Assembly (NCBI GenBank): GCA_039583875.1
Contig: CM077165.1
Coordinates: forward strand, 70,172,757-70,236,756
DNA: 64,000 nucleotides
Reading direction: 5' to 3'
DNA from: Platanthera guangdongensis
Lineage: Eukaryota > Streptophyta > Magnoliopsida > Asparagales > Orchidaceae
Shown here one piece after another: positions 20,524 through 60,443 of the stretch. A model generated the notes under the pieces. That model was not told where the DNA came from and ran no database searches. It was given only the letters and a program-made list of their open reading frames with translations. Positions within the stretch are counted from its first letter, which is position 1, and each line of letters starts with the position of its first letter. The translations under genes were made by a program, and so were the position numbers.

Positions 20524-20690
20524 CCCTCAAACCCAAACCCGGGTGAGAACGCACATTAGTGTCTTATACCAATTCCCTCAAACCCTAAACGGGTGAGAAC
20601 GCACATTAGTGCCTTATACCAATTCCCTCAAACCCTAAACGGGTGAGAATATATCATGAATCTCTCCAACCCTACACGGGCGAGAAGGTA
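20524..20690. repeat. 50-51-bp tandem repeats with telo-box-like AAACCCTAAAC
   Basis: CCCTCAAACCC starts at 20524, 20575 and 20625, with a weaker fourth unit. AAACCCTAAAC includes the plant telomeric heptamer, also known as the promoter telo box. The copy at 43230-43393 is in the other LTR. Confidence 0.85.
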
Positions 20691-25718: not shown

Positions 25719-25868
25719 AGATTTGTTGGGTACATTGGTTTAAATGTACCTGATTTGAAGAAGCCTCACCCAACTCAATGATATACATCAAAATGTATTT
25801 GATGTGTTTTTGAGTTACTTGTGCAGGTTAAGTATTTGCAGGACTGAAGCAAAAATTTCTAAGTCCAT

Positions 25869-26786
25869 GTGTCGACACCCAGAGGGAAAGTGTCGACACT
25901 TAAGAAGACTTGTGTCGACACCCAGGCAAGTAGTGTCGACACTTGGAGTCATTGTGTCGACACCTGGGATGCAGAGTCGACACCAGACACAAAGTGTTGA
26001 CACAAGGAGCTGTGTCGACACTCAATGAAGAAAGTACAGTAAAGCAGTGTCGACACTTAACAGCAGTGTCGACACCCAGTGAAGCTGTGTCTACACCAAA
26101 AAGTGTCGACACTTGGAGCTGTGTCGACACTCAGCAAAAGTCAGCAGAGACTAAGTTAAAGTGTCGACACCAAGAACAATGTGTCGACACACAACAGAAG
26201 AGTCAGCACTTGAAGAAAGTGTCGACACCAAGAACAAAGTGTCGACACTCAGCAGAAGAGTTAGCACTTGAAGTAAGTGTCGACACCCAGAACAATGTGT
26301 CGACACTCAGCTGAAGACTCTACACTTGAAGAAAGTGTCGACACATGGAGCTGTGTCGACACTTAGCAAAGAACAGAAAGATCAACAAAATATTCTAAGT
26401 ACAAGTGTCGACACTAAGGGAATGTGTCGACACTCAGCTGAAGTCTCAACAGAAGAATCAAGTGTCGACACAAGGAGTTGTGTCGACACTCATCAAGTAT
26501 CAACATTGAAGACTATGTGTCGACACCAAGAAGTAGTGTCGACACTTAACAGATTCAACATAAGAAGTTGTGTCGACACAAAGAAGATGTGTCGACACTT
26601 AGAAGAATTCAGCAAAAGATAGAAGATCAAGCACTTGTGTCGACACTCAATTTCAGTGTCGACATATGCAGAAGAAACTGTGTCGAGACATAGAATCTAC
26701 AACACAAGGAGTTGTGTCGACACCTTGTAGACTTGTGTCTACACTTACACAACTTGTGTCGACACTTGGTCTATAAGTGTCGACAC
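25869..26786. repeat. Array of about 30 GTGTCGACAC palindromes in E4 U3
   Basis: The 10-bp perfect palindrome GTGTCGACAC (with a SalI site and a central CpG) occurs about 30 times, plus one-base variants such as GTGTTGACAC and GTGTCTACAC. In the middle part sites come in pairs 18-20 bp apart, with about 34-40 bp to the next pair, giving a higher-order period near 57 bp. Example starts are 26161, 26181, 26219, 26239, 26277, 26297, 26335 and 26353. Confidence 0.95.
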
Positions 26787-26943
26787 TTAAAGACGGAAAG
26801 TCTCAACACTTTCAGACAGTTAGAGAACTTTCAAGAACTGACTGAATGACTTGACAGCTGCCGTTCCAGACGGTCTACAGCACCTATCAGAGATGTCAGA
26901 AGATAGTTATGAACCGGACCAGCCGGTTACCATGAAGAAAGCC

Positions 26944-26951
26944 TATAAATA
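26944..26951 (+). promoter_or_regulatory. E4 5' LTR TATA box
   Basis: TATAAATA about 160 bp after the last dyad, also at 37876-37883 in the 3' LTR. E7 has TATATAAA at the matching place. Confidence 0.75.
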
Positions 26952-27407
26952 GGCTCATACAGTCTACAGGAACTGTTGTTGTTGTTGAAGAAGTTGCTGA
27001 AGCAATTCAAAAAGTGATTCACAGAGTTGTTCAAGTTATTGATCAAGGATCAAATCAAGAAGATCTAGCTATCCAAGTGCAGATCTAAGAAGTTGGAGAG
27101 AGAGGGCTCCATCCAAGAAATCAGCTGTTGGAACTAGGCTGAGAAGAAGGATTCAGATTCATTCTGGGTCTTAAGAAGCAGAGGTCAAGGATCAACTGCA
27201 GAAGGAGTCAATCTAATTGAGTTCTACTTTCAAGAAGCTTTGAATAAAGCTAAGTCAGATTGAATCCAGCTGAGTTCTTCCAAGAACTCATCAAGAAACT
27301 CTCAACTCCCCTCTCTTATTTCTGAGTTGCTGAGTTATCATTTGTAAATTCATTTTTATCTTGTAGGATCTTTTGGATCTGAGTGTTTGTAAGCCTGTAA
27401 TTATAAA

Positions 27408-27590
27408 GGCTGAGGGTAGGGCTTGAGAGCCTGAGTGTAGGAGATTGAAATCTCTGAGTATAGGCCTTGGTGGTTGAGTGTAGGCCTTATTGGCTGAGTG
27501 TAGGCCTTGTTGGCTGAGTGTAGGCCTTGTGGCTGAGTGTAGGCTTTGTGGAAAAGCTGAGTTGTAGGGCTTTGGGCCTGAGGTGTAGGA
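27408..27590 (+). repeat. Short repeats in the transcribed leader of E4 LTR
   Basis: GCTGAGTGTAGGCCTTG-type units of about 18-20 bp are repeated roughly six times with variants. The same region exists in the 3' LTR and, more diverged, in E7 (about 59940-60150). They would be in the RNA. Confidence 0.8.
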
Positions 27591-27810
27591 ACCAGTTTGG
27601 GTTCTGAGACAGTGGTGAAGTTTGGCCGAATCTAGTACACTGCTAGATAGGCGAAGGGGGAAAGTGGATGTACCCAAAGCTTGGGGAACCACTATAAAAC
27701 ACTGTGTCTGTTGTGCTGTGCTTTGCTGTGTATGCTGTGTGATTGCAAAAGTAGAGTAGATTCTGTGTTATAACTGATTGCTGTCATTAAAGTTTAAAAA
27801 AGAATTAGGT

Positions 27811-27840
27811 CACCTATTCACCCCCCCCCCCCTCTAGGTG
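27811..27840 (+). promoter_or_regulatory. U5 hairpin with poly-C loop
   Basis: CACCTA and TAGGTG arms enclose a run of C, 20 bp before the LTR end. Matching structures are at 38742-38771 (E4 3' LTR), 60393-60423 (E7) and 54554-54575 (E6, reverse strand). Confidence 0.75.
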
Positions 27841-27862
27841 TTTAGGTACTATATCTTTCAAG

Positions 27863-27876
27863 TGATATCAGAGGGA
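27863..27876 (+). promoter_or_regulatory. E4 primer binding site
   Basis: TGATATCAGAGG two bases after the LTR; E6 and E7 have TGGTATCAGAGG. This matches the 3' end of initiator methionine tRNA, with one decayed base here. Confidence 0.8.
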
Positions 27877-27965
27877 GGTTCCTCAAAAAGGACTAACAGT
27901 CTAAGGAGATCCTGATTGGCAGATTCAGTCTAAGACAAATTACAGATTCAGGAAAATCAAGAACC

Positions 27966-30004
27966 ATGGGTTCCTCTGAGAATCATAAGGAATTGGGTTC
28001 CATGAAATTACCTCTATGCAGGAAAGAGATATTTGGGATCTGGAAGGAAAGGATAAGGCTGTTTAGGGAAGCCTCAGACCCTAGGATATACATCACAGTA
28101 AAGGAAGGGCCTTATGTGCCCATGAAGATATCAGTTCTAGATGCAAATCAGAGAACCCCAAAGGATTTCTCTGAAATGACTAAGGATGAGATTGTCCTAG
28201 CCACCATGGACAAAAGGGCACAAAACATTATAGTGAGTGTCATAGATGATGCAACTTTTCAGAATCTAATACACTGTAAGACAGCAAAAGAGATGTGGGA
28301 CACTCTTATTGTGTATATGGAGGGATCTGAAGAAGTTAAGCAAGATAGAAAATCCTTGCTAAATCAAGAGTATGAAAGTTTTAGACAAGGAAAGGGTGAT
28401 AGCATAACTGAGTGCTATAAGAAGTTCTACAGAATAGTGAATGAACTCATGTCATATGGAAGAGAGTTCAACAATTATGAACTAAATGACAAGTTCCTAA
28501 GGTCCCTAACTAAAGATTGGGACACAAAGATTTGTGTCATTAGAGAAATGGCTAAGTTGGGAGAAATTCCTCCACCTACACTGTTTGGCAAGTTATTGTC
28601 TTATGAAATGCAGTTGACAGTGAGGAAAGAAGAGGAGAAATCAACAAGAACTGAACACAAGGAAAGAACAGTAGATTTCAAGACAGAAGCCTCCAGAAAG
28701 TGCAGGAATAAGTCATCAACTCCACCTCCAAATGTAGTTGAATCAGAGTCAGATGAGTCAGTCAGCACAAAATCTGAAAGCAGTGAAAGTGATGAAAACT
28801 TTGCTGCCTTCACTAGACATTTTCAGAAATTCTTGAAGAAGAAACAGTGGAGATCAAGGCCTTCTACTTCAAAAGGAAAAGAAGATTTTTATCAGGATAA
28901 AAAGGCTTCAAAGAAGGACAGGAAGAGGACAAAATCTAGCAAGGCAACTGTTTCTAAAATAGTGTGCTATTGCTGCAATAGACAAGGCCATGTTGTTGCA
29001 GATTGTCCTGAAAAGAGAAAGGAGTCTAGTGACAAGAAGAAGACTCATTTCAAAGGAAAGAAAGAGAAGTCTTTTGTTGCCAAGAAAGAGAATACTCTAT
29101 CAGATATTTCTTCTTCAGAAACTGAGTCTGATGCTGAGGCATACATAGGGCTGTTTGCTGAAGAAGAAGAAGAAGAAGAATTCATGCAGATAATGGAGTC
29201 TATTTATTAACAAGAAGACTGCCAGTGCCAAGGACTGATGGCATTGACTGAGAGTGACAAAATCCTGGAGCAGTCAGGACCCAGTAAGGTACAAAGTTCA
29301 ACTTTAAGTTCAGTTTCTTGTGCCAGCACAGAATCAGATTCATCTTCATCAAGTGATGAAAGTGTATCTGAGTTTGAGGATGATATTCATCAGCTGATAG
29401 ATGAATATAAAGTATTGTTGCAAGCTTACAAGAAGAGCAAGTCCTTAGCCAAAAGTCAGGCAAAGGAAATTGCTGATCTTAAAGCTGCTGCAACAGATTC
29501 TGAGAAGCTATTTGATCAAAAGCTTAATGAGATAGCCAGGCTGAAACACATAACAGTGATTCAGATGGGGACTATCACCTTTAAGAATGATCAAATCAAG
29601 AGTCTGGAGATAAATCTTCAGAAGGAGAGAGAGCTTGTTGCTAGGTTTTCCAAATCTAAGTCAGTGTTACCCATAATTGATGAATTTGCTCATCACAAGG
29701 GTAAAGCTGGACTGGGTTTTATTAAACCTGCAAGGACTGTCAAGTCCAAGTCCAAGGGCAAAGCCCCAACAATCAACAAGTCTGTTGTAGATAAGACAGC
29801 AAAGACAGTACCTAAGCAAAGTACAATAAGTTTGAATGTTGGTGTTGTGGCAAAGTTGGCCATTTTGTAGTGGACTGTTGGCACAATGCTAGTGCCAAAG
29901 TGAGTACCAAACTACCTGTTGGAAAGCCAGTAGGTAGCTTTGTCAAGTTGCAAACTAACAAGTACCAAGGACCCAAGAATTCTTTGGGTTCTAAGGTTCA
30001 TTAA
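27966..30004 (+). pseudogene. gag: E4 Gag, interrupted
   Basis: ATG 27966. Residues about 15-215 resemble the copia capsid region (WKERIRLFREASD...LLNQEYESF). A zinc knuckle CYCCNRQGHVVADC is at about residue 335. The frame stops at TAA 29208, reopens in frame through a coiled-coil stretch to about 29830, then a frameshift is needed to read a second knuckle CWCCGKVGHFVVDC (about 29838-29880). E6's shortened Gag ends in the same kind of second knuckle, so that part is real. TAA at 30002 lies between Gag and protease. Gag and Pol separated by a suppressible stop is known from soybean SIRE1, but here other breaks make decay equally likely. Confidence 0.85.
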
Positions 30005-32993
30005 TCTATTTTGCAGGTGAGTCCAAGTGGCCATACCCCAACATGGTACTTGGACAGTGGATGTTCCAGACATATGACTGGAACTAGAGGATTACTAGGG
30101 GACTACATTCCAATAAAAGATGGTCCAAAAGTAACATTTGGTGATTCTGAAAAAGGAATCATCAAAGGATTTGGTAACATTTCTAGCAACTTGGTTACCA
30201 TTACTCAAGTGGCTTATGTTAAAGGGTTGAAACACAACCTAATAAGTATAAGTCAATTAAGTGATGTAGGGTATGACATCTCATTTGTTAAAAATGGCTG
30301 TCATATCAGGAGGTCAACTGATCAAGAGATCATTTTGACTGGTTATAGGAAGAGGAATGTCTACTGCTTAGACATTATGATTGAGAACAATGGTTCTCCA
30401 GTGTGTCTTGTAGCTGATGAGACAGTATCTCATTGTGTCAAATGGCACAAGAGGCTTGCCCATCTTAACTACAAGACTATTGGCAAACTCTTTAGCAAAG
30501 AGTTAGTGAGAAATGGTCCTCAAGTTAAGTGTGTTAAAGATGGTATTTGCTCAGCTTGTCAAAAGGGCAAGCAGACTAAATCCACCTTTAGAAGCATAGA
30601 AAACAAAGATGTTGTGAGCTGTTTATACCTCTTACACTTGGATCTCTTTGGTCCAATGCCAGTTCACAGCTTAGGTAGGAAGGTCTATACCCTTGTAGTT
30701 GTAGATGACTACTCAAGGTTTTCCTGGGTGTTCTTCTTAAGACAGAAATCTGAAACACCTACTGTCTTCCATAGCTTTGTCAAGCAAATTCAGAATGAAC
30801 TAAATAGTACAGTGGTCAAGATTAGAAGTGACCATGGTACTGAATTTCAGTCTGAAAGCATGACAAAACTATGTGAAGAATTTGGGATATTTCAAGAATT
30901 CTCTTCACCTAGAACACCTCAGCAAAATGGCATTGTTGAGAGAAAGAATAGAACCTTGATAGAGGCTGGTAGGACCCTATTAAGTGATACATCACTGCCA
31001 GAGTATTTCTGGGCTGAAGCAGTTAATACTGCATGCCATGTTATAAATAGGGCTACCATCACTAAAGGGCTCAACAAGACCCCCTATGAAGTTGTGAAAG
31101 GCAGGAAACCAAACTTATCCTATTTCAGGATCTTTGGTTGCAAATGCTTCATACTTAACAATGGGAAGTCTTACTTGACTAAGTTTGCTGCCAAGTCCCA
31201 AGAGGGAATTTTTTTTGGGTACAGCAATAACAGTAAGGCTTATAGAGTGTACAACTTGACTACACAAGTTGTAGAAGAATCTGTGCATGTAGTTTTTGAT
31301 GAGACTAAACTTATTAACAATAGGATGCCTCCAGCCAATAGGCATCTTGGAGATCAATCTTAGAGATCATCCAGTTGAGCAGATTATTGGAGATCCAAGA
31401 CAAGTGGTACAAAAAAGGAGCAGAAACATGAATGCAGCAGTCTACTCCAGTTTTCTATCTCAAGTTGAACCTAAGAAGTTTGAAGAAGTTATACTAGATC
31501 CACAATGAACTGAAGCAATGCAAGAAGAGCTTAATCAGTTCAAGAGGTGCAAGGTCTGGGAACTTGTTCCTAAACCTAAAGACCACAATATAATAGGAAC
31601 CAAGTGGATCTACAGGAATAAGATGGATGAACAAGGGGTCATCATTAAGAATAAAGCAAGATTGGTTGCTAAAGGATATAGGCAAGAAGAAGGTATTGAC
31701 TTTGATCAAACCTTTGCTCCAGTAGCCAGACTGGAAGCCATAAGGATGTTCTTAGCCTATGCAACCTATCAAGGATTCAAGGTTTACCAAATGGATGTCA
31801 AGTCAGCATTTCTGAATGGTAATCTTAAGGAAGAAGTCTATGTGGAACAGCCTTCAGGTTTTGTTGATTCAACTCTACCTCATCATGTCTATAGACTTAG
31901 GAAAGCTTTATATGGGTTAAAGCAAGCCCCTAGGGCTTGGTATGAAACCCTATCTAGTTTCCTCATTGAGAACAAGTTCTCAAGGGGGAAAATAGATAAG
32001 ACTCTATTCCTTAGGGAATCTAGAGGCAAAGTTATACTAGTCCAAATATATGTAGATGACATTATATTTGGGTCTACTGAAAGCAGCCTTTGCAAAAAGT
32101 TTGCAAAACTTATGCAAGGTCAATTTGAAATGAGTAGTATGGGAGAGCTGAAGTTTTTCTTGGGTCTCCAAGTTAAACAGACTGAGAGTGGTTTATCCAT
32201 TTGCCAGTCCAAGTTCACCCTAGAACTCATAAGGAAGTATGGTATGGATTCATCCAGCACCATGAAGACTCCTATGGGGTCAAGTATGTCTCTTAGCAAG
32301 GATGATGCAGGGAAGCCTGTAGATGAAACCTTGTATAGAGGGATAGTTGGCTCTCTATTATACTTGACTGCTAGTAGACCAGATATCATGTATGCTACAT
32401 GTGTTTGTGCAAGATATCAAGCCTGCCCTAAAGAGTCTCATTTGACTGCAGTCAAGAGAATATTGAGATATCTAAAGGGCACTCCCTATCTAGGCCTCTG
32501 GTACCCTAGGAATGGAGATTTTGATCTAACAGGTTATTCAGATGCAGACTTTGTAGGATGCAAAGAAGATAGAAAAAGCACTACTGGAACCTGTCAATTC
32601 CTAGGTGGGAGACTAATTTCATGGAGTAGCAAAAAGCAAACCAGTGTGGCTATCTCCACTGCAGAGTCAGAGTATGTGGCTGCAGGAAGTTGTTGTGCTC
32701 AACTTCTGTGGATACAGCATCAGCTAGAGGACTATGGATTTCAGGTAAGTAGAACTCCACTCTTCTGTGATTCTACAAGTGCTATTTCAATAGCTAATAA
32801 TCTTGTATCTCATAGTAGAACAAAACATATTGAAATTAAATATCATTTTCTTAGGGAGCATGTAGAAAGAGAAGATATTTTACTTGAATATGTTAAAACA
32901 GATGAACAATTAGCTGATATGTATACTAAGCCCCTAGAAGAAGCTAAGTTCAATAGATTTAAAATTGAATTAGGAATGATAAACTTAGAGTAA
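30005..32993 (+). pseudogene. pol: E4 Pol: protease, integrase, RT, RNase H (two breaks)
   Basis: Aspartic protease (WYLDSGCSRHMTG, about 30045), GAG-pre-integrase (about 30440-30570), integrase core (HLDLFGPM, IRSDHGTEF, NGIVERKNRTL; about 30630-31100), reverse transcriptase (about 31550-32270, YVDDIIFGS near 32050) and copia RNase H ([20 protein letters not shown]; about 32500-32870). The frame shifts between about 31300 and 31365, and a TGA at 31506 replaces a likely tryptophan. The catalytic motifs are otherwise intact. The order IN before RT is diagnostic of Ty1/copia. Confidence 0.93.
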
Positions 32994-33025
32994 GTTTACA
33001 GAATTGAAATTGGCTAAGTAAAAAG

Positions 33026-33471
33026 GTGTCGACATATAGACAAGTCTATGTCGACACAGAATAGTGGTGTCGACACTTCAGGAAATAGGTGTCGACACAT
33101 CTAGGAAGTTGGTGTCGACACTTCAAAATATTAGTGTCGACACATGCCAAGTAGGTGTCGACACATCCTAAGTGGTGTCGACACTTAGTATTTACTCAGA
33201 ATTTTCTAAGTAAATTCTCGACTATGTGTCGAGTTATGTGGTGTCGACACATAAACAAGTGTCGACACATAAAATCTGTTGACTAAACTTATGTCGACAC
33301 ATATGTGTCGAGACATTATAAGTCAGTGTCGACACTTATTGCCAGTGTCGACACATTTTAAGTTTGCTGTCCCGCCTGTTCATCTTCAAAATTAGAAAGG
33401 TATAAATAGGGCTTTGTCTTTGTTTGTCGACACGCTTTCAAAGTTTCGAGACCAAACTTCTGTGTCGACAC
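33026..33471. repeat. Internal GTGTCGACAC array upstream of the E4 additional ORF
   Basis: Eleven exact GTGTCGACAC copies plus variants. The first six start at 33067, 33089, 33112, 33134, 33155 and 33175, a regular 20-23-bp spacing. The surrounding bases differ from the LTR array, so this is not a displaced LTR piece. One copy (33462) and a variant (33424) lie downstream of the TATA box, in the presumed leader. The stretch 32994-33505 has no gene. Confidence 0.95.
33401..33408 (+). promoter_or_regulatory. Internal TATA box upstream of the E4 additional ORF
   Basis: TATAAATAGG about 50 bp after the main dyad block and 98 bp before the ATG at 33506. A telo-box-like AAACCCTAAT overlaps the start codon region. 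The layout copies that of the LTR (array, then TATA). Confidence 0.7.
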
Positions 33472-33505
33472 CTCTCTTTTCTCAAGACAAATTCTACAAA
33501 CCCTA

Positions 33506-36346
33506 ATGGCGCCTAAGCTAGAGGAGAACGTCAACGAAGGATACGAGCTGGTGCGCGGCGCTTTTGAGGATGCTGATCAAGAAATCAAGCACGTGATAAC
33601 CCTAGTAGCAGATTCCGGGTTAGAATATCTAATTTCTGAACCAACTAAAATCTGGAAGAAAGAGGTACTCGAATTCCTCAATGGAGCCAAGGTGGATGAA
33701 ACTGGATTCAAAATCAAATCCAGGGTACATGGTGAGAAGATCAAGGTATCACCAAAAAGTCTGAGGAAGATTCTACAGCTTCCAAGAACTAAAGAGGAAG
33801 ATGAGGTTACAGCTACAAAGACCAGGGAAGCTCTAACCTGGTGTGGACTTGATTCTAAGCTGAAGCTTGGTTCTGTTTTCAATAGAAAAGGGATGAACAA
33901 TCAAGGTAAATTCCTTTCTGAAATTGTTGGAAAGGTAATTTTAAGCAAGCCAGGAGGGCATGACAGAGTGTCTGCATATATGTTTGGAATAATGACAAGG
34001 ATAATCTTCACTCTAAAAACTGACTGGTTTATAGTAGTTTATGAGAAGATTAAAGAAAGCTTGAAGAAGCCCAACCTGGGCAGGATTTTAAGTCTTTATC
34101 TTGCTGTTGTAATACCTGAAGTGATGAGTACTGCTGCTGGAAGCAAAATAAACCATATGAGAAAGATGGATATGAGGATATTCTCTAGATGGGACAGGGT
34201 GTTGTCAAAGGAGATGCCAACCCCTGAGAAGATAGCTCCTGAGAAAGAAATTCCTCCCAAGAAGAAAAGGAAGACTGCTCCAGTGGCACAGGTTTCCACT
34301 AGCAGTTCTGAAAGTGAAGAACAAGTTGTCTTCACTCCAGATGAGAATGAGGAAGAGTCTGCTGTGAAGTCTCCAGCTCCTCAAGATGATGCTGAGATCC
34401 AGGGGGAGCTACCTCAAGCTAGCCCCATACACAAGGATCAAAGCCAGGGGGAGCTTCCAGTTGTAAATGAACCCACTACACTGGAAAGTGAACAAGCAAC
34501 CACCATCATACTAGAGGTAATCACTGAACTAAACAATTTAGATTTTTCTATGGAAAATACTGATTTGTCTGATGTTCATCAGCAAACTCAGCTGAATAGT
34601 CAAGTTCCAGATACTGTTATAAAAGACACATTTGTTATTGTTCAAGTGGTTCCTGATCTAGTGGTTGAAGAACCTAGAATTACTCCAGCTCCTTCACCAC
34701 AAGAATTCACCATGGAAGATTTATTTTTAAATCTGGATCAAGCAGATTTTGACATGGACAAGGCTACTGCTGAAAGAGATAATGCTGCTGTTGAGGGGGA
34801 GCAAGTGCAGATTCTGGAAGAGCCTGTGAGGCAAGAAACTGAGAAGGCACCAGATGTGCAACCTGAGAGGCCTCCAAGCCCTAAGGAGAGGGTTGACATA
34901 GCTAGCTCCTCAGAATCTGAAGATGAGGAGGCTACAAGGGCTAAGCAAAAGAAACTTTATGTATTCAAGAGAAGAAGCCAAAGTTATAAGAAGACTCTAC
35001 AATCTATTGCACCACAGCCTATAGTTCAGCAAGCCCCATCAATAGATTATAGTGCTTTAATGGTGGCAATGCAGATTAAACTGGATGAACATAGGCAGGC
35101 AATTGAGAAGTATGTAGATGAAGGGCAGAAATCTTTGCAATTTGATCTGGCCCAAGATATCAAGTCTATAAGATTTGAAATGAACCTTAACAAGAAAGAG
35201 ATGACAGACTGTTTTCACAAGAGTGGACATACAGTGGTGTACTTGGCCACACACCAAGAAAAGATAAAAGCACAAGTAGATGACATAGCATTGAAGCAAG
35301 GGTATGTTCTTGAAAATCAGCTAAGGATGAATGACAATCTTACTACTTCCCATAATGCTATTGTCACAGAATTAAAGAACCAGGATGCTGGACCTTCTAC
35401 CTCTACTGTTGCTGTTAAAGCTGAATTTGATAAAGTATTTCAAGAAGAACTCAATGATGTTAAGACTGCCATTGAAGACTCCCAGAAGGCCATATCTGAA
35501 CAACTTAAAAAGCTCAAACCATTCTTTAAAGATGGAATCAGATACTTGGATAATCAAATAAGATTTCAGAAGGATGATGTCAGAGATCACATGGCTAGAG
35601 AAGTTATAAAGGGGGAGAGAGTGTTAGTCAAGGCAAGCTCTGACCATGCTAAGTGGATATCAAATTCTATCAGAGCTACACTTGGATATCCTCCTCTGTG
35701 TGATGATAATGATGTTGCTGAATCTGGAATTAACCCTGCCTATCTTGGAGGTGAGCAACCTGAAGTAGCCCAAGTCATTTATCCTCCTCCAGATTTTGAA
35801 ATGGTGCATGCTGATGTACAGACCATGTACAGCCCACCTGGGGGCAAGGACAATGTAATTATTGAAAAGGTTGTTCAGCCTATATCTGAAGCCATGCAAG
35901 AGGCATTGCAAAAAGAAGAAGAGACAAGATTGTCTAAGAAGAGGTTTAGGGAACAAGCTGAACAGAGACCAGATTTTGAGCAATGGAGCCCTACCTCTAG
36001 AAACATTATATTAACTGCCTGGAAAGCTGCCAAAGACAACATTCATGATAGGAACAAATGGTTCTCTGAAGCTGAATGGAGAAAACATGAATCTAGACAG
36101 GAGGCAATTGTCCAATACAGAAGGAATGCAAAGATGGGAAAGCTACCTCCTACTGCCTATGAGCCTAGCAAGTACTTTCCTAAGCCATACCATTATTTTG
36201 AAAGACAAAAGATCAAAGCAGAAGAGCTTAAGAAGAAAGATCTGAAAGGCAAGAAGCCTGCTGATGCTGAAGCTGCTGATGCTCCTGTCCAAGCTAAAGT
36301 TCATGCTGGCAAAGGAATAGTTATCAAGGAACCTGAACTGAAATAG
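33506..36346 (+). CDS. E4 additional ORF: 946-aa protein with NLS-like motif and coiled coil
   Basis: Open from ATG 33506 to TAG 36344. Residues 1-235 form a domain (LEFLNGAKVDETGFKIKSR..., VSPKSLRKILQLP) resembling the plant transposon-protein domain found in many retroelement ORFs (Transposase_32). Residues about 250-256 are PKKKRKT, a classical nuclear-localisation pattern. Residues about 260-490 are acidic and rich in E, P and S; about 520-740 look coiled-coil; the C-terminus from about 826 (QWSPTSRNIIL) is basic. There is no signal peptide or membrane segment, which argues against an envelope protein despite the env-like position. E6 carries a homologue matching at both ends (49520-51859). 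A nuclear regulatory or nucleic-acid-binding role is possible but unproven. Confidence 0.85.
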   Translation: MAPKLEENVNEGYELVRGAFEDADQEIKHVITLVADSGLEYLISEPTKIWKKEVLEFLNGAKVDETGFKIKSRVHGEKIKVSPKSLRKILQLPRTKEEDEVTATKTREALTWCGLDSKLKLGSVFNRKGMNNQGKFLSEIVGKVILSKPGGHDRVSAYMFGIMTRIIFTLKTDWFIVVYEKIKESLKKPNLGRILSLYLAVVIPEVMSTAAGSKINHMRKMDMRIFSRWDRVLSKEMPTPEKIAPEKEIPPKKKRKTAPVAQVSTSSSESEEQVVFTPDENEEESAVKSPAPQDDAEIQGELPQASPIHKDQSQGELPVVNEPTTLESEQATTIILEVITELNNLDFSMENTDLSDVHQQTQLNSQVPDTVIKDTFVIVQVVPDLVVEEPRITPAPSPQEFTMEDLFLNLDQADFDMDKATAERDNAAVEGEQVQILEEPVRQETEKAPDVQPERPPSPKERVDIASSSESEDEEATRAKQKKLYVFKRRSQSYKKTLQSIAPQPIVQQAPSIDYSALMVAMQIKLDEHRQAIEKYVDEGQKSLQFDLAQDIKSIRFEMNLNKKEMTDCFHKSGHTVVYLATHQEKIKAQVDDIALKQGYVLENQLRMNDNLTTSHNAIVTELKNQDAGPSTSTVAVKAEFDKVFQEELNDVKTAIEDSQKAISEQLKKLKPFFKDGIRYLDNQIRFQKDDVRDHMAREVIKGERVLVKASSDHAKWISNSIRATLGYPPLCDDNDVAESGINPAYLGGEQPEVAQVIYPPPDFEMVHADVQTMYSPPGGKDNVIIEKVVQPISEAMQEALQKEEETRLSKKRFREQAEQRPDFEQWSPTSRNIILTAWKAAKDNIHDRNKWFSEAEWRKHESRQEAIVQYRRNAKMGKLPPTAYEPSKYFPKPYHYFERQKIKAEELKKKDLKGKKPADAEAADAPVQAKVHAGKGIVIKEPELK

Positions 36347-36655
36347 AATTAGAATTTTCTTAAAGTTTACTGTGTAATCTTTTTGATGTAAAAAAAACAT
36401 TTTTGTGAACTTCTGAAACTGTATAAGACAGATATTAGAACAATATATGATTAATCTATTTCATGTTTGTTCTGTGATAATGTCTATGTCTATTTCATAT
36501 TTGTTCTGTGATGATGAATTTGTACACATGTGAAATTGATACATGTTTATGTTTACCCTGCTGTATATTATCCTGCTTTACATCATTTTGTAATTTTATT
36601 ATGAATGGTGTATATCATTGACTAAGGGTTATGACTTCTCCAAATAGGGGGAGAT
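36347..36655 (+). other. E4 3' non-coding region with polypurine tract
   Basis: AT-rich sequence with three similar ATTTCATGTTTGTTCTGTGA-like stretches (36458-36515). It ends in the purine tract AGGGGGAGAT (36646-36655) next to the 3' LTR. Confidence 0.8.
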
Positions 36656-38791
36656 TGTTGGGTACATTGGTTTAAATGTACCTGATTTGAAGAAGTCTCA
36701 CCCAACTCAATGATATACATCAAAATGTATTTGATGTGTTTTTGAGTTACTTGTGCAGGTTAAGTATTTGCAGGACTGAAGCAAAAATTTCTAAGTCCAT
36801 GTGTCGACACCCAGAGGGAAAGTGTCGACACTTAAGAAGACTTGTGTCGACACCCAGGCAAGCAGTGTCGACACTTGGAGTCATTGTGTCGACACCTGGG
36901 ATGCAGAGTCGACACCAGACACAAAGTGTTGACACAAGGAGCTGTGTCGACACTCAATGAAGAAAGTACAGTAAAGCAGTGTCGACACTTAACAGCAGTG
37001 TCGACACCCAGTGAAGCTGTGTCTACACCAGAAAGTGTCGACACTTGGAGCTGTGTCGACACTCAGCAAAGGTCAGCAGAGACTAAGTTAAAGTGTCGAC
37101 ACCAAGAACAATGTGTCAACACACAACAGAAGAGTCAGCACTTGAAGAAAGTGTCGACACCAAGAACAAAGTGTCGACACTCAGCAGAAGAGTCAGCACT
37201 TGAAGTAAGTGTCGACACCCAGAACAATGTGTCGACACTCAGCTGAAGACTCTACACTTGAAGAAAGTGTCGACACATGGAGCTGTGTCGACACTTAGCA
37301 AAGAACAGAAAGATCAAAAAAATATTCTAAGTACAAGTGTCGACACTAAGGGAATGTGTCGACACTCAGCTGAAGTCTCAACAGAAGAATCAAGTGTCGA
37401 CACAAGGAGCTGTGTCGACACTCATCAAGTATCAACATTGAAGACTATGTGTCGACACCAAGAAGTAGTGTCGACACTTAACAGATTCAACACAAGAAGT
37501 TGTGTCGACACAAAGAAGATGTGTCGACACTTAGAAGAATTCAGCAAAAGATAGAAGATCAAGCACTTGTGTCGACACTCAATTTCAGTGTCGACATATG
37601 CAGAAGAAACTGTGTCGAGACATAGAATCTACAACACAATGAGTTGTGTCGACACCTTGTAGACTTATGTCGACACTTACACAACTTGTGTCGACACTTG
37701 GTCTATAAGTGTCGACACTTAAAGACAGAAAGTCTCGACACTTTCAGACAGTTAGAGAACTTTCAAGAACTGACTGAATGACTTGACAGCTGCCGTTCCA
37801 GCCGGTCTACAGCACCTGTCAGAGATGTCAGAAGATAGTTATGAACCGGACCAGCCGGTTACCATGAAGAAAGCCTATAAATAGGCTCATACAGTCTACA
37901 GGAACTGTTGTTGTTGTTGAAGAAGTTGCTGAAGCAATTCAAAAAGTGATTCACAGAGTTGTTCAAGTTATTGATCAAGGTCAAATCAAGAAGATCTAGC
38001 TGTCCAAGTGCAGATCTAAGAAGTTGGAGAGAGAGGGCTCCATCCAAGAAATCAGCTGTTGGAACTAGGCTGAGAAGAAGGATTCAGATTCATTCTGGGT
38101 CTTAAGAAGCAGAGGTCAAGGATCAACTGCAGAAGGAGTCAATCTAATTGAGTTCTACTTTCAAGAAGCTTTGAAGAAAGCTAAGTCAGATTGAATCCAG
38201 CTGAGTTCTTCCAAGAACTCATCAAGAAACTCTCAACTCCCCTCTCTTGTTTCTGAGTTGCTGAGTTATCATTTGTAAATTCATTTTTATCTTGTAGGAT
38301 CTTTTGGATCTGAGTGTTTGTAAGCCTGTAATTATAAAGGCTGAGGGTAGGGCTTGAGAGCCTGAGTGTAGGAGATTGAAATCTCTGAGTGTAGGCCTTG
38401 GTGGTTGAGTGTACGCCTTGTTGGCTGAGTGTAGGCCTTGTTGGCTGAGTGTAGGCCTTGTGGCTGAGTGTAGGCTTTGTGGAAAAGTTGAGTTGTAGGG
38501 CTTTGGGCCTGAGGTGTAGGAACCAGTTTGGGTTCTGAGACAGTGGTGAAGTTTGGCCGAATCTAGTACACTGCTAGATAGGCGAAGGGGGAAAGTGGAT
38601 GTACCCAAAGCTTGGGGAACCACTATAAAACACTGTGTCTGCTGTGCTGTGCTTTGCTGTTTATGCTGTGTGATTGCAAAAGTAGAGTAGATTCTGTGTT
38701 ATAACTGATTGCTGCCATTAAAGTTTTAAAAAAAATTAGGTCACCTATTCACCCCCCCCCCCCTCTAGGTGTTTAGGTACTATATCTTTCA
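36656..38791 (+). repeat. E4 3' LTR (2136 bp)
   Basis: Sister of 25724-27860. The TATA box is at 37876-37883 and the poly-C hairpin at 38742-38771. It is followed by the AGATT duplication. Confidence 0.95.
36801..37721. repeat. GTGTCGACAC array in the E4 3' LTR
   Basis: Same array as at 25869. Several differences between the sister arrays change the dyad itself (for example GTGTCAACAC near 37110), mostly C/T or G/A changes. Confidence 0.93.
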
Positions 38792-38796
38792 AGATT

Positions 38797-40469
38797 CTTG
38801 TGATCTGAAAAGATGTCACAATGAATCCCGTATAAGTAATGCCTCCATATCTTTAGGGCGAAAACCACAGCCCCGAGCTCTAGGTCATGTACTGGATAGC
38901 TATGCTCATGCTTCTTCAACTGTCTCGAAGCATAAGCAATAACATGTTCATGCTGCATCAGGACTGCACACATCCCCTGATAAGAGGCGTCCGTGTAGAT
39001 CTGGAATCCTTCGCTCCCGGATGGAAGAGCAAGAATAGGGGATGAGATGAGTCGGTCCTTCAGCTCCTGAAAAGCCGTCTCACACTGCTCTGACCAAAAA
39101 AAATTTGTGTCCTTCTTCGTCAAGGACGTGAGGGGGAGTGTTATCCTCGAGAACCCCTCCACGAACTTGCGGTAATACCCTGCTAGTCCTAAGAAACTGC
39201 GGATGTCAGATGCGGTCTTCGGCCGTGGCCAATCCCTCACTGTCTCTATCTTGGCTGGGTCCACTGCTAATCCAGCCCCACTGATCGTGTGCCCCAGGAA
39301 AGCCACCTCCTGCAGCCAGAACTGGCACTTTGAAAATTTTGCATACATCTGGGTCTCCCTCAGCCTCTGCAAGACCTGCGCCAGGTGCTCCGTATGCTCC
39401 TCCTGAGTCCGAGAATATATAAGGATGTCGTCGATGAATACAATCACGAAGCGGTCTAAGAAAGGATCGAATACACGGTTCATTAGACTCATGAATGCGG
39501 CAGGGGCATTCGTGAGCCCAAAAGGCATCACCGTGAACTCGTATAATCCATAGCGTGAACTGAATGCCGTCTTCGGTATGTCCTCTTCCCTGATACGGAG
39601 CTGGTAGTAGCCGGATCGTAAATCTAGCTTGGAGAACCAGAAGGCTCCCTGCAGCTGGTCAAATAACTCATCTATCCGAGGCAGAGGATAGGTATTGCGG
39701 ACCGTTAACCGGTTCAGCTCCCGGTAGTCTATGCATAGTCGCAGTGATCCGTCCTTCTTCTTCACAAAGAGAACTGGTGCTCCCCATGGCGATGAACTGG
39801 GCCTCACAAATCCTGACTCGACTAGCTCCTGTAGTTGAGTCCTAAACTCTGCTAACTCCCTGGGAGCCATCCTGTAGGGTGCCCGGGACACCGGCCTCGC
39901 TCCCGGTACTAGCTGAATCCTGAAATCCAAGTCTCTAGCAGGTGGTAGCCCGGGCAATTTCTCCGGGAATACGTCGGAGAAATCCCAGACCACCGGAATA
40001 TCTGATATAGTCGTCTCTGCTCCCACCATCTCGAAACAGATAAGATAAACTTCTTCACCCTGCTCGTGAGCCTTCACAGCCTGTACAGAAGATAGCAATA
40101 GGTGGCAGATAGGTTGAATACCTTCAACGATAACATGAGAGTCGCCATGCCTTAGCGTGATCCTTCTGGACGGACAATCTATCTAAGCATGGTTCCGATG
40201 CAACTAGGTCATGCCCAAAATCAAGTCAAAGTCCTGCAGCTTCAGAATAGTTGTCGGCACCTCAAATGCCTTGCCACCAATCTCGGCCTCCATATCATAA
40301 TGTGCAGTGGTCCGCAGCTCTGACCCATCGGGTAGACACACCCTCATCTCTAGTCCAGGAAACCTCTCCACACCTTCGAGTCCGTCGATGAAGGCCTCGG
40401 ATACGAACGAGTGCGAAGCACCCGTGTCGAAGAGAGTATGAGCGGGCTTGCCGCTGATCATAACTATGC
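38797..40469 (-). pseudogene. pol: E3 pol, first part: protease, RT, start of RNase H
   Basis: Begins after the gag-protease intron. Protease [10 protein letters not shown] (about 40440), then stops TAG at 40204 and TAG at 40183. From 40098 the frame is open through reverse transcriptase ([30 protein letters not shown]) to RNase H (YTDASY, SDHKNL), where E4 interrupts it. It continues at 25718. The RT block missing from E1 is present here. Confidence 0.92.
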
Positions 40470-40564
40470 CTGAGGTTTGTTTACGTTAAAGTTAATTGTT
40501 ATCCTATAGTTCCAGGTACTATATAATTGAATATTCAAGAAACTTAATCATTAACTTTAAGTAC
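40470..40564 (-). other. E3 probable spliced intron between gag and protease
   Basis: 95 bp on the minus strand: donor CACAG|GTACTTAAAG, acceptor AACCTCAG|GC. It starts just before the gag stop (40559-40557) and joins gag to protease in phase 1 at a glycine codon, exactly as in E1. Since 95 is not a multiple of three, Gag and protease are in different frames unless this is removed or the ribosome shifts. Confidence 0.78.
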
Positions 40565-41780
40565 CTGTGATAACCTCCTCGGGGTTCCTCTGCTCTGTGA
40601 GGTCCAAGGCGTATATCTGCTCCTGCTCACGTCTCCTGCCGTGATATCCCCGGCCTCGGCCTCGTCCTTGGCCTCGTCCTCGGCCCTGCTGTACTGGGGC
40701 CACTGGATGTGGAGGAGGAGGAGGGGGATGGAATCGGTGCGGGCACTCCGACCTAATGTGCCCGGGCTGGCGGCATCCGTAACAAACTACCTGTCGGTGG
40801 CCTCGGTCATCCTGTCTCCTCGGATCATGCATCTGTAGAGGTGGGGGAGCCAATGCTGGAGGAGGCCCCTGCTCCTGCCTGAAGTTGGGACGACGACGTC
40901 CCCCACCCTTCCTGTATCCGATAGTCCTGCCTCTCTGAGAGCCCCTGCTGCTCTCTCCTGATGTCGACCCATCAAATGGTCTCTTCCCTCCGGCTCGCAC
41001 CATCAGCTGGTCAGCCTCCAGCTTCTTCGCTATCTCAATGATCTGCCTAGATGTGCCATGAGAAATGAACAGCAAGGCCTGCCTCAAATCGTCCCTGAGG
41101 CCCCGGTAGAACCTCTTGGCATACCTCCTATCATCGGTATCCTGAATCCCTGCGAACTTGGCCAAATGAGAGAACTCTCTCTGATACTCTATCACCGATC
41201 TAGTCCCCTGCCTGAGGTTCAAAAACCTCTCCTCCAAGGCATCTCTGTCCGTAGCAGAGACGAAGTGCTCCAGAAACACATCGCCAAACTCCTCCCATGA
41301 TATCTCTGACAGCTCAAAGTCCGCATATGTAGACTCCCGGACTGATTTCCACCATCTCTTCGCATGAGCCTCTAGCACAGAGGTGGCTAGAGGTACTGCC
41401 TCGCCGACTGGGTAGCTAATGCCTGCTAAGATCTCGTGTATGGCCTCCAGCCATTCTTCCGTCTTCACCGCATCCTCTGTCCCACGGTACGTCGGTGGGG
41501 ACAGGCTCTTGAATGCACTCAGCCAGCTCGACCCCGGATTTGGCTGTGGAGCCGGGACTTGCTGGGATCTGAAGGCATCCAGAATCGTCGCCAAGGTCTG
41601 CCCCATCTCTGTATGTAGGAATGGAGTGGCAGCTGGAGGGGGAGGAGCCACATTTTGCGGCGCGGCGACCTGTGGAGGTTGCATAAAGGTAAGGTTAAAA
41701 CAGAACTGGCCTAACTCATTGTACTTTGTGGACCATTTATGTGACTTTTGTACATGGGCACACCACTGCTTCCGCTGCAT
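40557..41780 (-). CDS. gag: E3 Gag
   Basis: 407-residue open frame. The likelier start is the second ATG at 41684 (MQPPQV), because the 32 residues before it look like translated leader. Capsid domain roughly residues 95-270 (WLEAIHEIL, AKRWWKSV, FSHLAKFAG), then a basic, glycine-rich region and a complete zinc knuckle CYGCRQPGHIRSEC (about 335-348), followed by P-rich and RG-rich stretches. Intact, unlike E3 pol. Confidence 0.88.
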   Translation of the reverse strand: MQRKQWCAHVQKSHKWSTKYNELGQFCFNLTFMQPPQVAAPQNVAPPPPAATPFLHTEMGQTLATILDAFRSQQVPAPQPNPGSSWLSAFKSLSPPTYRGTEDAVKTEEWLEAIHEILAGISYPVGEAVPLATSVLEAHAKRWWKSVRESTYADFELSEISWEEFGDVFLEHFVSATDRDALEERFLNLRQGTRSVIEYQREFSHLAKFAGIQDTDDRRYAKRFYRGLRDDLRQALLFISHGTSRQIIEIAKKLEADQLMVRAGGKRPFDGSTSGESSRGSQRGRTIGYRKGGGRRRPNFRQEQGPPPALAPPPLQMHDPRRQDDRGHRQVVCYGCRQPGHIRSECPHRFHPPPPPPHPVAPVQQGRGRGQGRGRGRGYHGRRREQEQIYALDLTEQRNPEEVITGT

Positions 41781-41850
41781 AGTTTGTCCGCAAACTAATA
41801 CTCGGGCGGGGGTGGTCCCATGTTGTGGACTTCTTTCTCATATGATCGTT

Positions 41851-41865
41851 GTTCAAGTGATACCA
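41851..41865 (-). promoter_or_regulatory. E3 primer binding site
   Basis: On the minus strand TGGTATCACTTGAAC. The first eight bases match the initiator Met tRNA end; the rest has diverged. Confidence 0.65.
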
Positions 41866-43229
41866 GTTTATAGGACCCCCCCCCCCCCCCTTACCAAGGA
41901 GGCTACCGGGTCTTATGCCCAGAACCGCCGTCTTACGGTGGCACTAACGCACGGGTTAGTCGACACCGCAACACACCGATCCTGCCGGCTAGTACGATCA
42001 ATTAACCTGTAGGCCAATATGAGAAGAAAGAAGTAAAAACTGTATATGAATCCATCAGTCCACAAGCCACATAGTACAATCATATAAATGAAATGAAAAG
42101 TGCATCAATATAGTCCACAGAAGAGTACAAATGAAAGAGTAAAAAGGGCTTATGTCCAGTACATCAAAATCACTCTCTCTCAAAATAAATAAATGTGGAA
42201 GCTGTACTAGAACATCAGATCTCGTCCCACCTGAGGAAGCACAGTAGTGGTAGTAGCCTGCTGAAGCGGTATCTGCTCCTCATGTCCTGCCTCCTCGACG
42301 TGCTGGTGCTCCATCTCCACGGGCTCCTAAAAATAGTTTGGTCACCGACCATTAGTCAAAAAGACTAAGTCGTTTCCTCCGCACCTCGCCCCGCAGATCC
42401 TAGGCACCGAGCGGGAGGACGAAGCGGAGGACAACAAGGGGTAGCAAAAGTGGAAGCAGGTGACAGAATCTAACTAGAGTTGTAATAAGTAATGTTGTTC
42501 TAGTCTAGCAGTTCTAAGCATGGTACAAGTAGTAAGTAAGAGCAGTGCAGTAAAGGAAAGTAAAGAACAGTAGTATGAACAAGTAAATAAACTAAACTAC
42601 CACTATATTATCATCACAAACGTACCCTAACTTATATAAATGCCCATACAAATATATAAGTTAGGATTTCCAGGAAATTTAACTTATCATATAAAAGAGC
42701 TCATACTAATTTATATGATAAGGATCTATGAAGCGTATGACCTAATATGAATGAATGATATGATGCAATTTTATGGGCGGGCAAGTGCAACTCACACACA
42801 ACGACTCTGTGATCACAGACCTTTAGTTCCCACTTTTTGAGAGCTAGCATCACTCTCGGGTACCACCGCTGTGGCTACGGCAGCAGCGGAGCGGGCGTCT
42901 CCGCTTCTAGACTGGTATGCACACTACCAAGCCTTAGACCCCTCTCATACGCCTCTGTACACGTCCAAGGTGCACTCTAGAGTCTCGCGTACGTACTTTG
43001 CTGACAAACCCGTCAGTCTTGTTGGGTCGGATGTGTGTTATCGGGGATCGTCCTCCAGACCGCAGTGTAAAACAACCCACTGGCCCCTCTAACTCTCACA
43101 ACTGCCTGGTGCACCGTACTGCCATCGGTGTGACGAACGGCCAGTACCGCATGCCCCGCCACGATATTTATGCACATGCAAGTATTTCATTCCGAGCCTC
43201 CCGCTCGCAGGACCAAACCCGTCCTGAAT

Positions 43230-43393
43230 CCCTCAAACCCAAACCCGAGTGAGAACGCACATTAGTGCCTTATACCAATTCCCTCAAACCCTAAACGGGT
43301 GAGAACGCACATTAGTGCCTTATACCAATTCCCTCAAACCCTAAACGGGTGAGAATATATCATGAATCTCTCCAACCCTACACGGGCGAGAAG
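43230..43393. repeat. 50-51-bp tandem repeats in E3 5' LTR
   Basis: Sister of 20524-20690, same unit and copy number. Confidence 0.85.
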
Positions 43394-46148: not shown

Positions 46149-46545
46149 TCATTTCACTCCTTTAGGTCAATTTATTGACTTGTTGACTTGGGGAGTTGAC
46201 TTGGTCAACCATGGTGGGTGGGTTGACCCTACTTGGTGGAAATGGGTCTAGTGGCACCACCCAACTTGGGTTGGGTCAAGGGGGGTGCCCTACTTAGGCC
46301 AATTGGGCTTATGAGTGTGAGTTTGACCAAATCAAGCCCAAGGTTGACTTTGGTCAATTGGGGTCAAAGTGTTGACCTAGTGACATGCCCTAGGGTCCAC
46401 TTAGATTGTCTTTAGGGTTAGGTCAATGTGGTGGGGTCATGGTGTGGCTAGGGTCCCCACTTAGACTAGTTTGACCTAGTTTGACTATGGTCCTATAGTG
46501 GGCCCCACATGGCTACCACCCACTACCTAGGGTCAAATATAGTTG
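46149..46545. promoter_or_regulatory. TTGAC (W-box core) cluster in E3 5' LTR
   Basis: About 15 TTGAC/GTCAA words within the first 470 bp of the LTR. Confidence 0.7.
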
Positions 46546-49326: not shown

Positions 49327-49447
<121 letters not shown>

Positions 49448-54523: not shown

Positions 54524-54525
54524 CT

Positions 54526-58517: not shown

Positions 58518-60443
58518 TGTTGGCTACATTGGAAAATGTGTACCAGATTTGAAGAAGCCTCACCCTGCTCAATGATATACATCAAGGTGTATTTGATATG
58601 CTTTGAGTTTATATGTGTAGGTTAAGTAATTGCAGGAAATGCAGAAAAGTTTCTAAGTCCATGTGTCGACACCTAAAGGTGAAGTGTCAACACTTATGAA
58701 AGCTTGTGTCCACACCTAGAGAAGTTGTGTCGACACTTGGAGTAATTGTGTCGACACAAGGAAAGGCGGAGTCGACACCAGAAGAAAAGTGTCGACACAT
58801 ACAGGCAATGTCGACACATTGTGAAGAATTGTCAACATAATCTGTGTCAACACTTACAGGCAGTGTCGACACTCAGAGAAGCTTTGTCGACATCAAATGT
58901 GTCGACACCAGGAGGCTGTGTCGACACTCAGCAAGCTTCACCAAAGTTAAAGTACTTGTGTCGACACAAAGGAGATGTGTCGACACTCAGCAAGTTTTCA
59001 ACACAAGAAGGCATGTGTCGACACAAAGGAGATGCGTCGACACTCAGCAAGTTTTCAACACAAGAAGGCATGTGTCGACACAAAGGAGTTGTGTCGACAC
59101 ACAGTAGAATTCAACTAAGTGTTAAAGAAGAAGTACTTGTGTCGACACACTCAATCAGTGTCGACACATTCAACAGAAGGCTTGTGTCGACACATAGAAT
59201 CAGTGTCGACACATTCTGAAGAAGTAGTGTCGAGAAGCTGTTACAACAACACAAGGAGTTGTGTCGACACCATCAAGGCTAGTGTCGACACTTAGTCTAC
59301 TTGTGTCGACACTTAGTCTATTTGTGTCGACACATAATGACTATCTGTCTCGACACTTTCAGACAGTGACAGTGATTTCAAGAAGTGACTGGATGACTTG
59401 ACAGCTGTCATTTCAACCGGTCAACTGCAACTGTCAGAGCTGACAGAAGTTCGTTAGAAATCGGATCAGCCGGTTACCTTGGAGGAAGACTATATAAAGA
59501 CCTTTCTCCTTCAACAGAAAAGTATTGATCACAACACAACAATCAATCAACAAATTATTCATTGAAGATCAATAACAGATTGAAGATCTACACAGAGATC
59601 TAACAATACAAAAGAAGAAGACCTTCGAGAGAAGATCTAAGAAGTTGGAGAGAGAGAGCTCCTTCTAAGAAGAGTAGCTGCTGAACCAGGCTGCTAAGTA
59701 AGATTCAGATTGAGATCTGAATCTCAAGACAGAAGTTGATTGAAGATCATCTTCACAGGAGATTCAACCCTACTGAGTTCTAGTTCAAGAAGCTTTGAAG
59801 AAAGCTAAGGGAGGTTGATCTCTGCCAACTTCTTCCAAGAACTCATCAAGAAGTCTGTCAACTCATCTCTCTCTATCAGAGTTGTGGTTAATTACTTTGT
59901 ATTATCAAATTCCTGTAGGATCTTGTATAGATCTGAGTTGTAAGCCTAAATCTATAAAGGCTGAGGTAGGGCTTTTGAGCCTGAGTGTAGGAGAATCAAT
60001 TCTCTGAGTGTAGGCCTTGTTGAAGGCTGAGGTAGGGCTGTTTAGCCTGAGTGTAGTTCTTGTTGAAGACTGAGTGGTGGTAGGGCTTGTGCCTGAGTTG
60101 TAGGAGTGGGGACACTCTGAGTTGTAGGAACCTGTTTGGGGTTCTGAGCTGTAGGATCTGAAGATCTGAGGAGTAGTGCAGAAGTTAGGCTGAATCTAGT
60201 ACACTACTAGATAGGCGAAGGGGGAAAAGTGGATGTACCCAGACCTTGGGGAATCACTATAAAAATCTGTGTGCACTCTGTGTTTGTTTATTTTTGTGAT
60301 TGCTGAGCTAGCTGTGCTGAATTGCTATAGAAAATTGCAAATACAGGTTTAATTGTTCAGTGTTTATGCCTTAAATTTAAAAAGATAAAGTTCACCTATT
60401 CACCCCCCCCCCCCCTTTAGGTGGTTAGGCACTATTTCTTTCA
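58518..60443 (+). repeat. E7 5' LTR (1926 bp)
   Basis: TGTTGGC...TTTCA. GTGTCGACAC array 58669-59332 (about 21 exact copies), TATATAAA at 59490-59497, leader repeats about 59940-60150, poly-C hairpin 60393-60423: the same layout as E4. Confidence 0.92.
58669..59332. repeat. GTGTCGACAC array in E7 LTR
   Basis: About 21 exact dyads plus variants (GTGTCAACAC, GTGTCCACAC, GCGTCGACAC). A unit of about 57 bp ending in CAAGTTTTCAACACAAGAAG is nearly repeated around 58960-59070. Confidence 0.9.

Follow-up and report, generated by a model that had tools for sequence, protein, structure and literature searches.

The locus examined here raises the question of how a plant retrotransposon expresses a gene that lies behind gag and pol. 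In a window of Platanthera guangdongensis DNA (the whole stretch analysed, 64,000 nucleotides), a Ty1/copia element designated E4 carries an ENV-like open reading frame (ORF) downstream of pol, and a sequence-only reading had proposed that this ORF is transcribed separately, under the control of the factor that acts on the LTR. The general idea is not new, having been published for Sireviruses in 2010 (PMC2829016). According to passages of that paper, Bousios et al. described palindromic RM boxes in the Sirevirus LTR before the TATA box and again before ENV, reported CpG islands at the pre-ENV place, and proposed an internal promoter that they could not conclusively identify. In passages of PMC2829016 and PMC3414828, the expression and role of the ENV-like gene in most Sireviruses are described as unproven. 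The layout of E4 is as follows.

25724-38791, plus strand: whole element E4, Ty1/copia
25724..27860, plus strand: 5'LTR, with a box array at 25869-26809 and TATAAATA at 26944
27861..32993, plus strand: gag-pol region in the copia order gag, integrase, RT, with interrupted frames and without CpG
33506-36346, plus strand: ENV-like ORF, 946 codons, intact, with a PF20167-like N-terminus (below cut-off)
36646..36655, plus strand: terminal polypurine tract (PPT) AGGGGGAG plus AT, adjoining the 3'LTR
36656..38791, plus strand: 3'LTR, with a box array at 36801-37741 and TATAAATA at 37876

By the features of Bousios et al. (passages of PMC2829016), E4 is a Sirevirus, an assignment based on the copia domain order, a PPT 10 bp from the 3'LTR and a palindrome array before the TATA box of the LTR. 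Pfam matches to PF14223, PF00665, PF25597 and PF07727 fall within gag-pol, with PF14223, PF00665 and PF07727 in the order that places gag and integrase before RT, and the named best matches of the E4 RT are proteins called Ty1/copia. The copy of AGGGGGAG at 36646 begins exactly 10 bp before the 3'LTR (36656). No clustered extra PPT copies occur between the ORF and this terminal copy; such copies after ENV are a trend in Sireviruses (56/63), not a rule, in the same source (PMC2829016). Four further PPT octamers lie within the ENV-like ORF itself (34401, 34446, 34794 and 35610). The LTR/PBS junction is TGATATCAGAG, one base from TGGTATCAGAG of the related element E7, and a C run precedes the LTR end; both features were judged by eye against the description in passages of PMC2829016, without alignment. 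Where at least eight symmetric boxes before the LTR TATA box and more before ENV mark the group, E4 has, at up to two mismatches, 37 boxes per LTR and 17 before ENV. A 5-bp target site duplication (AGATT, at 25719-25723 and 38792-38796) flanks the element, and its LTR pair is nearly identical (2108/2136 aligned bases; K2P 0.0132), which indicates that E4 is young. The gag-pol frame (27897-32993) is broken by an in-frame stop (29208-29210) and changes near 29.9 and again near 31.4 kb, whereas the ENV-like ORF is unbroken. A 50-bp tandem repeat unit at 20523-20649 recurs at 43229-43355, on the other side of E4, as if E4 sat inside an older element whose LTRs carry this unit.

The interval between pol and the ENV-like ORF is distinguished by a short box, GTGTCGACAC, of which the window holds 90 exact copies against 0.02 expected: 30 in the E4 5'LTR, 11 in the pol-ORF interval (33067-33471), 29 in the E4 3'LTR and 20 in the E7 LTR. 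Both the count of 11 and the restriction of all other exact copies to the E4 and E7 LTRs, as claimed by the sequence-only reading, are borne out. Across 1-25700 and 38800-58500, one site with one mismatch and 13 with two were found, and the remainder of the E4 internal region has no site at up to two mismatches. At that threshold the pol-ORF interval contains 17 boxes (33026-33471), arranged with the following features.

33026..33354, plus strand: part of the internal array before the TATA box, holding 14 of 17 sites, of which 10 are exact
33401..33408, plus strand: TATA box of the proposed internal promoter, TATAAATA
33424..33471, plus strand: three boxes at 19-bp steps (33424 near-exact, 33443 variant, 33462 exact)
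33432..33505, plus strand: inferred 5' leader without ATG, its start placed at TATA + 31
58518..60443, plus strand: E7 LTR, a related element with E4's box, used as comparison copy

The regular spacing of 20-23 bp that had been described holds for five of the ten intervals between exact copies and fails for those of 18, 19, 66, 67 and 117 bp (start-to-start distances in order: 22, 23, 22, 21, 20, 66, 18, 67, 19, 117); when degenerate boxes are counted too, 13/16 steps fall within 14-23 bp. The succession of TATAAATA and an ATG is as reported, with 97 bp between the TATA box (33401-33408) and the ATG (33506). The boxes at 33424, 33443 and 33462, absent from that earlier description, all lie 3' of the TATA box, and the first of them overlaps the inferred start site near 33432. 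By comparison, the pattern TATA[AG]AT occurs in 3/1008 random 18-bp slots of gag-pol. The statement that the module is not a stray LTR copy also stands: with boxes masked, its score against the 3'LTR is 18 (17.7 on average for shuffled sequence), and its spacers score no better than shuffled sequence against either E4 LTR or the E7 LTR, while the positive control, E7 against E4 LTR, scores 513. The core of the box is TCGA, which differs from the CGG-CCG core published for Sireviruses. For a known factor, none of the titles listed in the literature for GTGTCGACAC looked like work on plant retroelements, and TGTCGACA with promoter matched work on rice cis-elements, a lead not exhausted.

Conservation across relatives was assessed in the 4.25-Gb assembly of 274 contigs to which the window itself belongs. 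Twenty loci (L009-L028) were taken as the ten best of each of two ENV-like protein searches (150 scored of 102690 and 80502 candidates) and share 53-77% identity with E4 wherever the ENV-like N-terminus was matched; three of them are near-duplicates of others. All 20 have an ATG at the corresponding place, the array, and a TATA box at -106 to -115. They hold 10 to 17 boxes in 560 bp, as compared with an average of 0.12 and a maximum of 2 in 2000 same-size windows from 1-25 kb of the analysed stretch, although single relatives have as few as 4 exact boxes and several boxes are missing or degenerate. Another eight loci (L001-L008), located via the array itself and hence no independent evidence, give the same picture. 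Over all 28 loci, eight of them found through the array, the TATA box stands at -105 to -115 in every case (as TATAGATA in L008), and the leader is without an upstream ATG in 26. An ORF of this family standing without the array, which the sequence-only reading had named as evidence against itself, was not encountered among the 20 ENV matches. Of 16 E4-family copies sampled at steps from 150 scored matches with the array disregarded, 15 have it; in the sixteenth (L080), similarity to E4 begins only ~14 bp before the ATG, so the entire upstream region is missing there.

The proposed check across relatives, in which boxes should be kept while spacers drift, gave this result. In an alignment of 18 sequences (E4 and 17 of the 20 loci, with 12 left-edge columns dropped for gaps), pairwise identity is 0.986 for the TATA box, 0.904 for boxes and 0.687 for spacers; when the box mask was shifted circularly, none of 259 placements gave so large a difference (best 0.206 vs 0.217). 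The three boxes at 33424, 33443 and 33462 have identities of 0.87, 0.84 and 0.86 against 0.69 for spacers; conservation at 33443 (0.84) suggests that the variant box there has been retained as such and is not a copy in decay. The same contrast is seen between the E4 3'LTR and the E7 LTR, where boxes are 95% identical (285/300) and spacers 63% (266/419), with 187 spacer and 70 box gapped columns left out and a site counted as a box if either copy matched with no more than two mismatches, a definition slightly in favour of boxes. LTRs of the diverged family members L044-L046 keep 17, 27 and 10 exact copies of GTGTCGACAC; the pieces L047 and L048, which contain neither PPT nor box, probably missed the LTR. 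As side observations, E7 (58518-61388), whose final listed frame ends at 61388, comprises an LTR, a primer site and a gag-like stretch of 853 bp that contains two CpGs, and the LTRs of E4 (37794-37857) and E7 (59418-59472) keep CCGG-type CpG motifs between array and TATA box, a candidate second class of sites.

Gene models from another species bear on the same region. At least seven protein relatives of the E4 ORF were found among the best 7999 word-sharing candidates scored, all named Platanthera, and the best RT matches of E4 are 87% identical proteins of P. zijinensis. In the P. zijinensis model P0004, pol continues into the ORF via GINRSRTYSVDTLTRFSRLKPCVDN...MAPK (GINR...SVDT...CVDN...MAPK), while E4 in one frame gives GINRALSLFVDTLSKF over the TATA box and the first box after it. 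In this comparison, a hand reading through degenerate codons and not of DNA, GINR fits GGTATAAATAGG (the TATA box) and VDT fits the box at equal spacing, with the residues between them differing.

A further mark of the region is its CpG content.

33030..33671, plus strand: CpG island, to which the 31 CpGs of the internal region of E4 (27861-36655, 8795 bp) are confined

These CpGs cover the boxes, the core promoter, the leader and the first 166 bp of the ORF, and there is none in the 5165 bp upstream (27861-33025), in the last 2675 bp of the ORF or in the 309 bp after it. No other CpG-free run in the window is as long as the two that flank the island, 27652-33030 (5378 bp) and 33670-36805 (3135 bp). 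Before codons starting with G, C stands in place of T at 8/12 positions in the first 55 ORF codons and at 0/142 later. Relatives have a similar island; outside it, 14/20 contain at most 5 CpGs per 1480 bp and 6/20 contain 7 to 32, and in these six at least part of the excess coincides with the onset of CpG-rich blocks of a different sequence. The loss of CpG in the gag-pol and ENV bodies probably predates the insertion of E4. Regulatory overlap with the first codons was considered as a reason for CpG retention and rejected: at equal amino acids, codon identity is 0.55-0.57 in the first 56 codons compared with 0.52-0.62 otherwise (19 sequences). These codons are not unusually conserved at synonymous positions, so that CpG appears to be kept without visible selection on the sites. 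The natural reading of such an island is protection from methylation, as at an active promoter; the pattern suggests that this stretch was unmethylated in the germ line of the copies that bred, whereas methylation of the gene bodies cost them their CpGs.

Two other families allow the shared control of LTR and array to be examined more widely. Twelve loci (L029-L040) represent another Sirevirus family, with an RT 94-95% identical to the protein P0031, which is 66% identical to the RT of E4. The pol-ENV interval of this second family, as seen in L029 and L030 of the 12 copies, has an array of ATCGTCGA paired with TCGACGAT, a TATA box (TATAAAACT) and a CpG island. All 20 of its loci chosen through ENV show 8-10 boxes and a TATA box at -118 to -123, these loci being near-identical copies (97-100%; L049 and L029 are one and the same copy). 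Its box is common to its 3'LTR and its pre-ENV array: linker and LTR have 29 distinct ten-letter words in common (one copy, the first 1300 bp of the L043 3'LTR, against the L030 linker), and the corresponding number is 40 in E4 and 2 in each of two cross-family comparisons. The family has at least 87 RT matches among those listed, and because they are nearly equal in score and many lie in a 1061-codon open frame, a recent burst is suggested. A third family is represented by an element within the window.

~47518-49182 and 54526-56188: LTRs of the third-family element, 94.6% identical, with the ORFs on the minus strand

This element has a Sirevirus-like primer site, LTRs with 31-32 bp box arrays of their own, an ORF matching PF20167 at 3.7e-9 (below the curated cut-off), and a CpG island and TATA box before that ORF; no RT or integrase domain was found in the four ORFs tested. 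Its LTR boxes are not recognisable before the ORF, where 13 eight-letter words are shared against a null mean of 5.3 and a maximum of 16. The earlier proposal that one factor serves both LTR and array thus gains from the second family, in which a different box is shared by both places, and loses from the third, whose lack of sharing counts against its generality.

Taken together, these observations favour, with a rough probability of 0.75, the interpretation that the interval 33026-33505 serves a Sirevirus as an internal promoter for RNA polymerase II, under the factor of its LTR. Several lines of evidence converge: boxes identical to those of the LTR, far beyond chance and without LTR similarity outside them; a TATA box whose distance from the ORF hardly varies, followed by a leader without ATG; conservation of boxes and TATA box relative to spacers, as is typical of binding sites; local CpG retention that reaches only a little past the ORF start; and the agreement of the P0004 reading with the E4 TATA box and box. 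The joint difference of LTR and array boxes in the second family argues for control by the LTR's factor, and E4 and its relatives combine a TATA box with putative factor sites common to the LTR. In the proposed mechanism, a dimeric DNA-binding factor acting on the LTR boxes would also bind the internal array, transcription would start near 33432, and a short, separate mRNA would be made that has the ENV-like ORF as its first reading frame and ends in the 3'LTR, like genomic RNA. Counting against the internal promoter are the third family, which lacks LTR boxes before its ORF, and the boxes that are missing or degenerate. The addition made here is a specific candidate for the core promoter, supported by comparison among relatives, from a family in which the boxes do not have the published core; no mapped Sirevirus ENV promoter was found in the literature searched, which lay outside bioRxiv and most subscription papers. 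As a short piece of DNA with a TATA box, boxes, a CpG footprint and a predicted start site, the candidate is directly testable, and the joint box difference between LTR and linker offers a handle on the factor.

Among the alternatives, splicing of an LTR-started RNA survives best and is still unlikely. Here a CAG|GTAAGT donor at the end of pol would be joined to an acceptor that lies either upstream of the ORF or barely within it, yielding a Pol-ENV fusion or an ENV mRNA, and the array would have another role. Scored by a simple matrix, the best E4 donor has its GT at 32745 (CAGGTAAGT, 8.0), followed by 30017 (CAGGTGAGT, 7.0) and a third at 3.4; the first two are near-perfect and both fall within pol. 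A donor-like site at -704 to -770 is present in 8/8 and 11/20 relatives (19/28), and two Platanthera gene models (P0004, P0006) both leave pol for ENV behind the residues DYGIQ, at the 32745 donor; that the donor is common in relatives and used by gene models counts against the internal promoter. The donor is nevertheless absent from 9/20 relatives, and the region covering the 5' leader and the gag start (26970-28100) offers no good donor (best 2.3), so that the gag-pol AUGs would stay upstream in a spliced RNA. Only one acceptor in E4 is clearly pyrimidine-rich (33485, 0.87; next 0.67), and acceptors are not conserved, the last 60 nt of the leader containing 0 to 3 AGs and none in 3/28. A hand join of the 32745 donor to the pyrimidine-rich acceptor runs into a stop, and one between ORF codons four and five, as in P0006, is in frame. 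Splicing also leaves the kept TATA box unexplained.

Less probable again is the proposal that the boxes matter not as protein sites but as RNA or DNA hairpins, serving as a small-RNA template or as a packaging or silencing target. The array RNA (33060-33360) indeed folds far better than shuffles (z -13.0), with the inferred leader region (33432-33530) unremarkable (z +0.39); in maize, small RNAs are drawn to the palindromic regions of Sirevirus LTRs (Bousios 2016, according to a passage of PMC10760457). The fold of the array would burden scanning on a long RNA. Yet among 72 two-mismatch boxes in the 28 loci, near-duplicates included, one is still palindromic against ~2.7 by chance (an expectation calculated by hand); with no sign of compensatory changes, an RNA hairpin was rejected as the selected feature. 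Nor do hairpins explain the TATA box or a CpG island extending over the first codons.

That a related LTR inserted before the ORF by chance and then decayed would explain why the box is identical to that of the LTR, but it is highly improbable: outside the boxes the module resembles neither the E4 nor the E7 LTR, scoring like shuffled sequence when masked, and the array occupies the same place in 20/20 diverged relatives and, with another box, in the second family. Stop-codon read-through from pol, known for one Sirevirus, SIRE1 (a passage of PMC2829016), can practically be dismissed, as it is contradicted in E4 by several stops in all three frames of the 512 bp between the pol stop (ending 32993) and the ATG.

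The ENV-like ORF has no Pfam match above cut-off (PF20167 at 0.0046), and its N-terminus is predicted with a mean pLDDT of 45.9, too poor for a fold search; a search of viral contigs yielded neither a relative of the ORF nor a spaced box pair. An NLS-like PPKKKRK stands at residue 252 of the E4 protein, and KKRK or KKKRK motifs occur in ENV-like proteins of two families. The K-K/R-x-K/R pattern, a simple one for which chance matches are possible in lysine-rich proteins, is present in all six proteins checked from E4's family and in three 3'-part pieces of the second, and absent from three 5' parts of the second family and from the third-family piece. In a simple hydropathy scan of the E4 protein, the best 19-residue window reaches 1.64 (one window at or above 1.6) and the first 40 residues 0.08; other ENV-like proteins or pieces peak at 0.79-1.87, a few above 1.6, so weak membrane segments may be present there. 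On balance, these features fit a nuclear protein better than an envelope. A tentative extension, itself doubtful, is that the gene encodes a nuclear, self-recognising regulator, whose product would bind the boxes of its own family in LTR and internal promoter and keep them unmethylated and active in an autoregulatory anti-silencing loop. This would fit the joint occurrence of ENV and pre-ENV boxes, the change in step of LTR and linker boxes between two families, the survival of CpG only at the array, leader and ORF start, and the NLS-like motifs of two families together with at most weak membrane-like segments. Should the ENV-like protein prove to be the box factor, the meaning of "envelope" genes in plant retroelements would change.

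Comparison with known systems places E4 close to, and in part beyond, what has been described. Like the Sireviruses with RM boxes (passages of PMC2829016), E4 has boxes ahead of the LTR TATA box and a second set ahead of ENV, each place having a CpG island; unlike the published boxes with their CGG-CCG core, those of E4 are built on TCGA. Tnd-1 in the same source is also without that core. Beyond the findings in those passages are the TATA box at a nearly fixed distance, the retention of boxes relative to spacers, and the joint box difference between two families. SIRE1 is likewise a Sirevirus with an ENV-like ORF after pol, but its pol and ENV are separated only by a stop codon (PMC2829016, in part), as opposed to 512 bp in E4. 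Foamy viruses, as described in a portion of PMC3798896, also have a second promoter inside the retroelement, with a TATA box and sites for the factor that drives the LTR; theirs lies within env and drives a transactivator gene, and for a plant element the parallel is one of analogy only, with no homology claimed. The regulator loop proposed for the ENV-like protein is comparable, again by analogy, to foamy virus Tas or to VANC of the VANDAL transposons (a passage of PMC5735166), anti-silencing proteins that belong to a different kind of transposon; for a VANC-like role, in which a factor would bind the repeated motif of its own element and strip it of methylation, the joint box difference, the CpG island and the NLS-like motifs provide only circumstantial indications.
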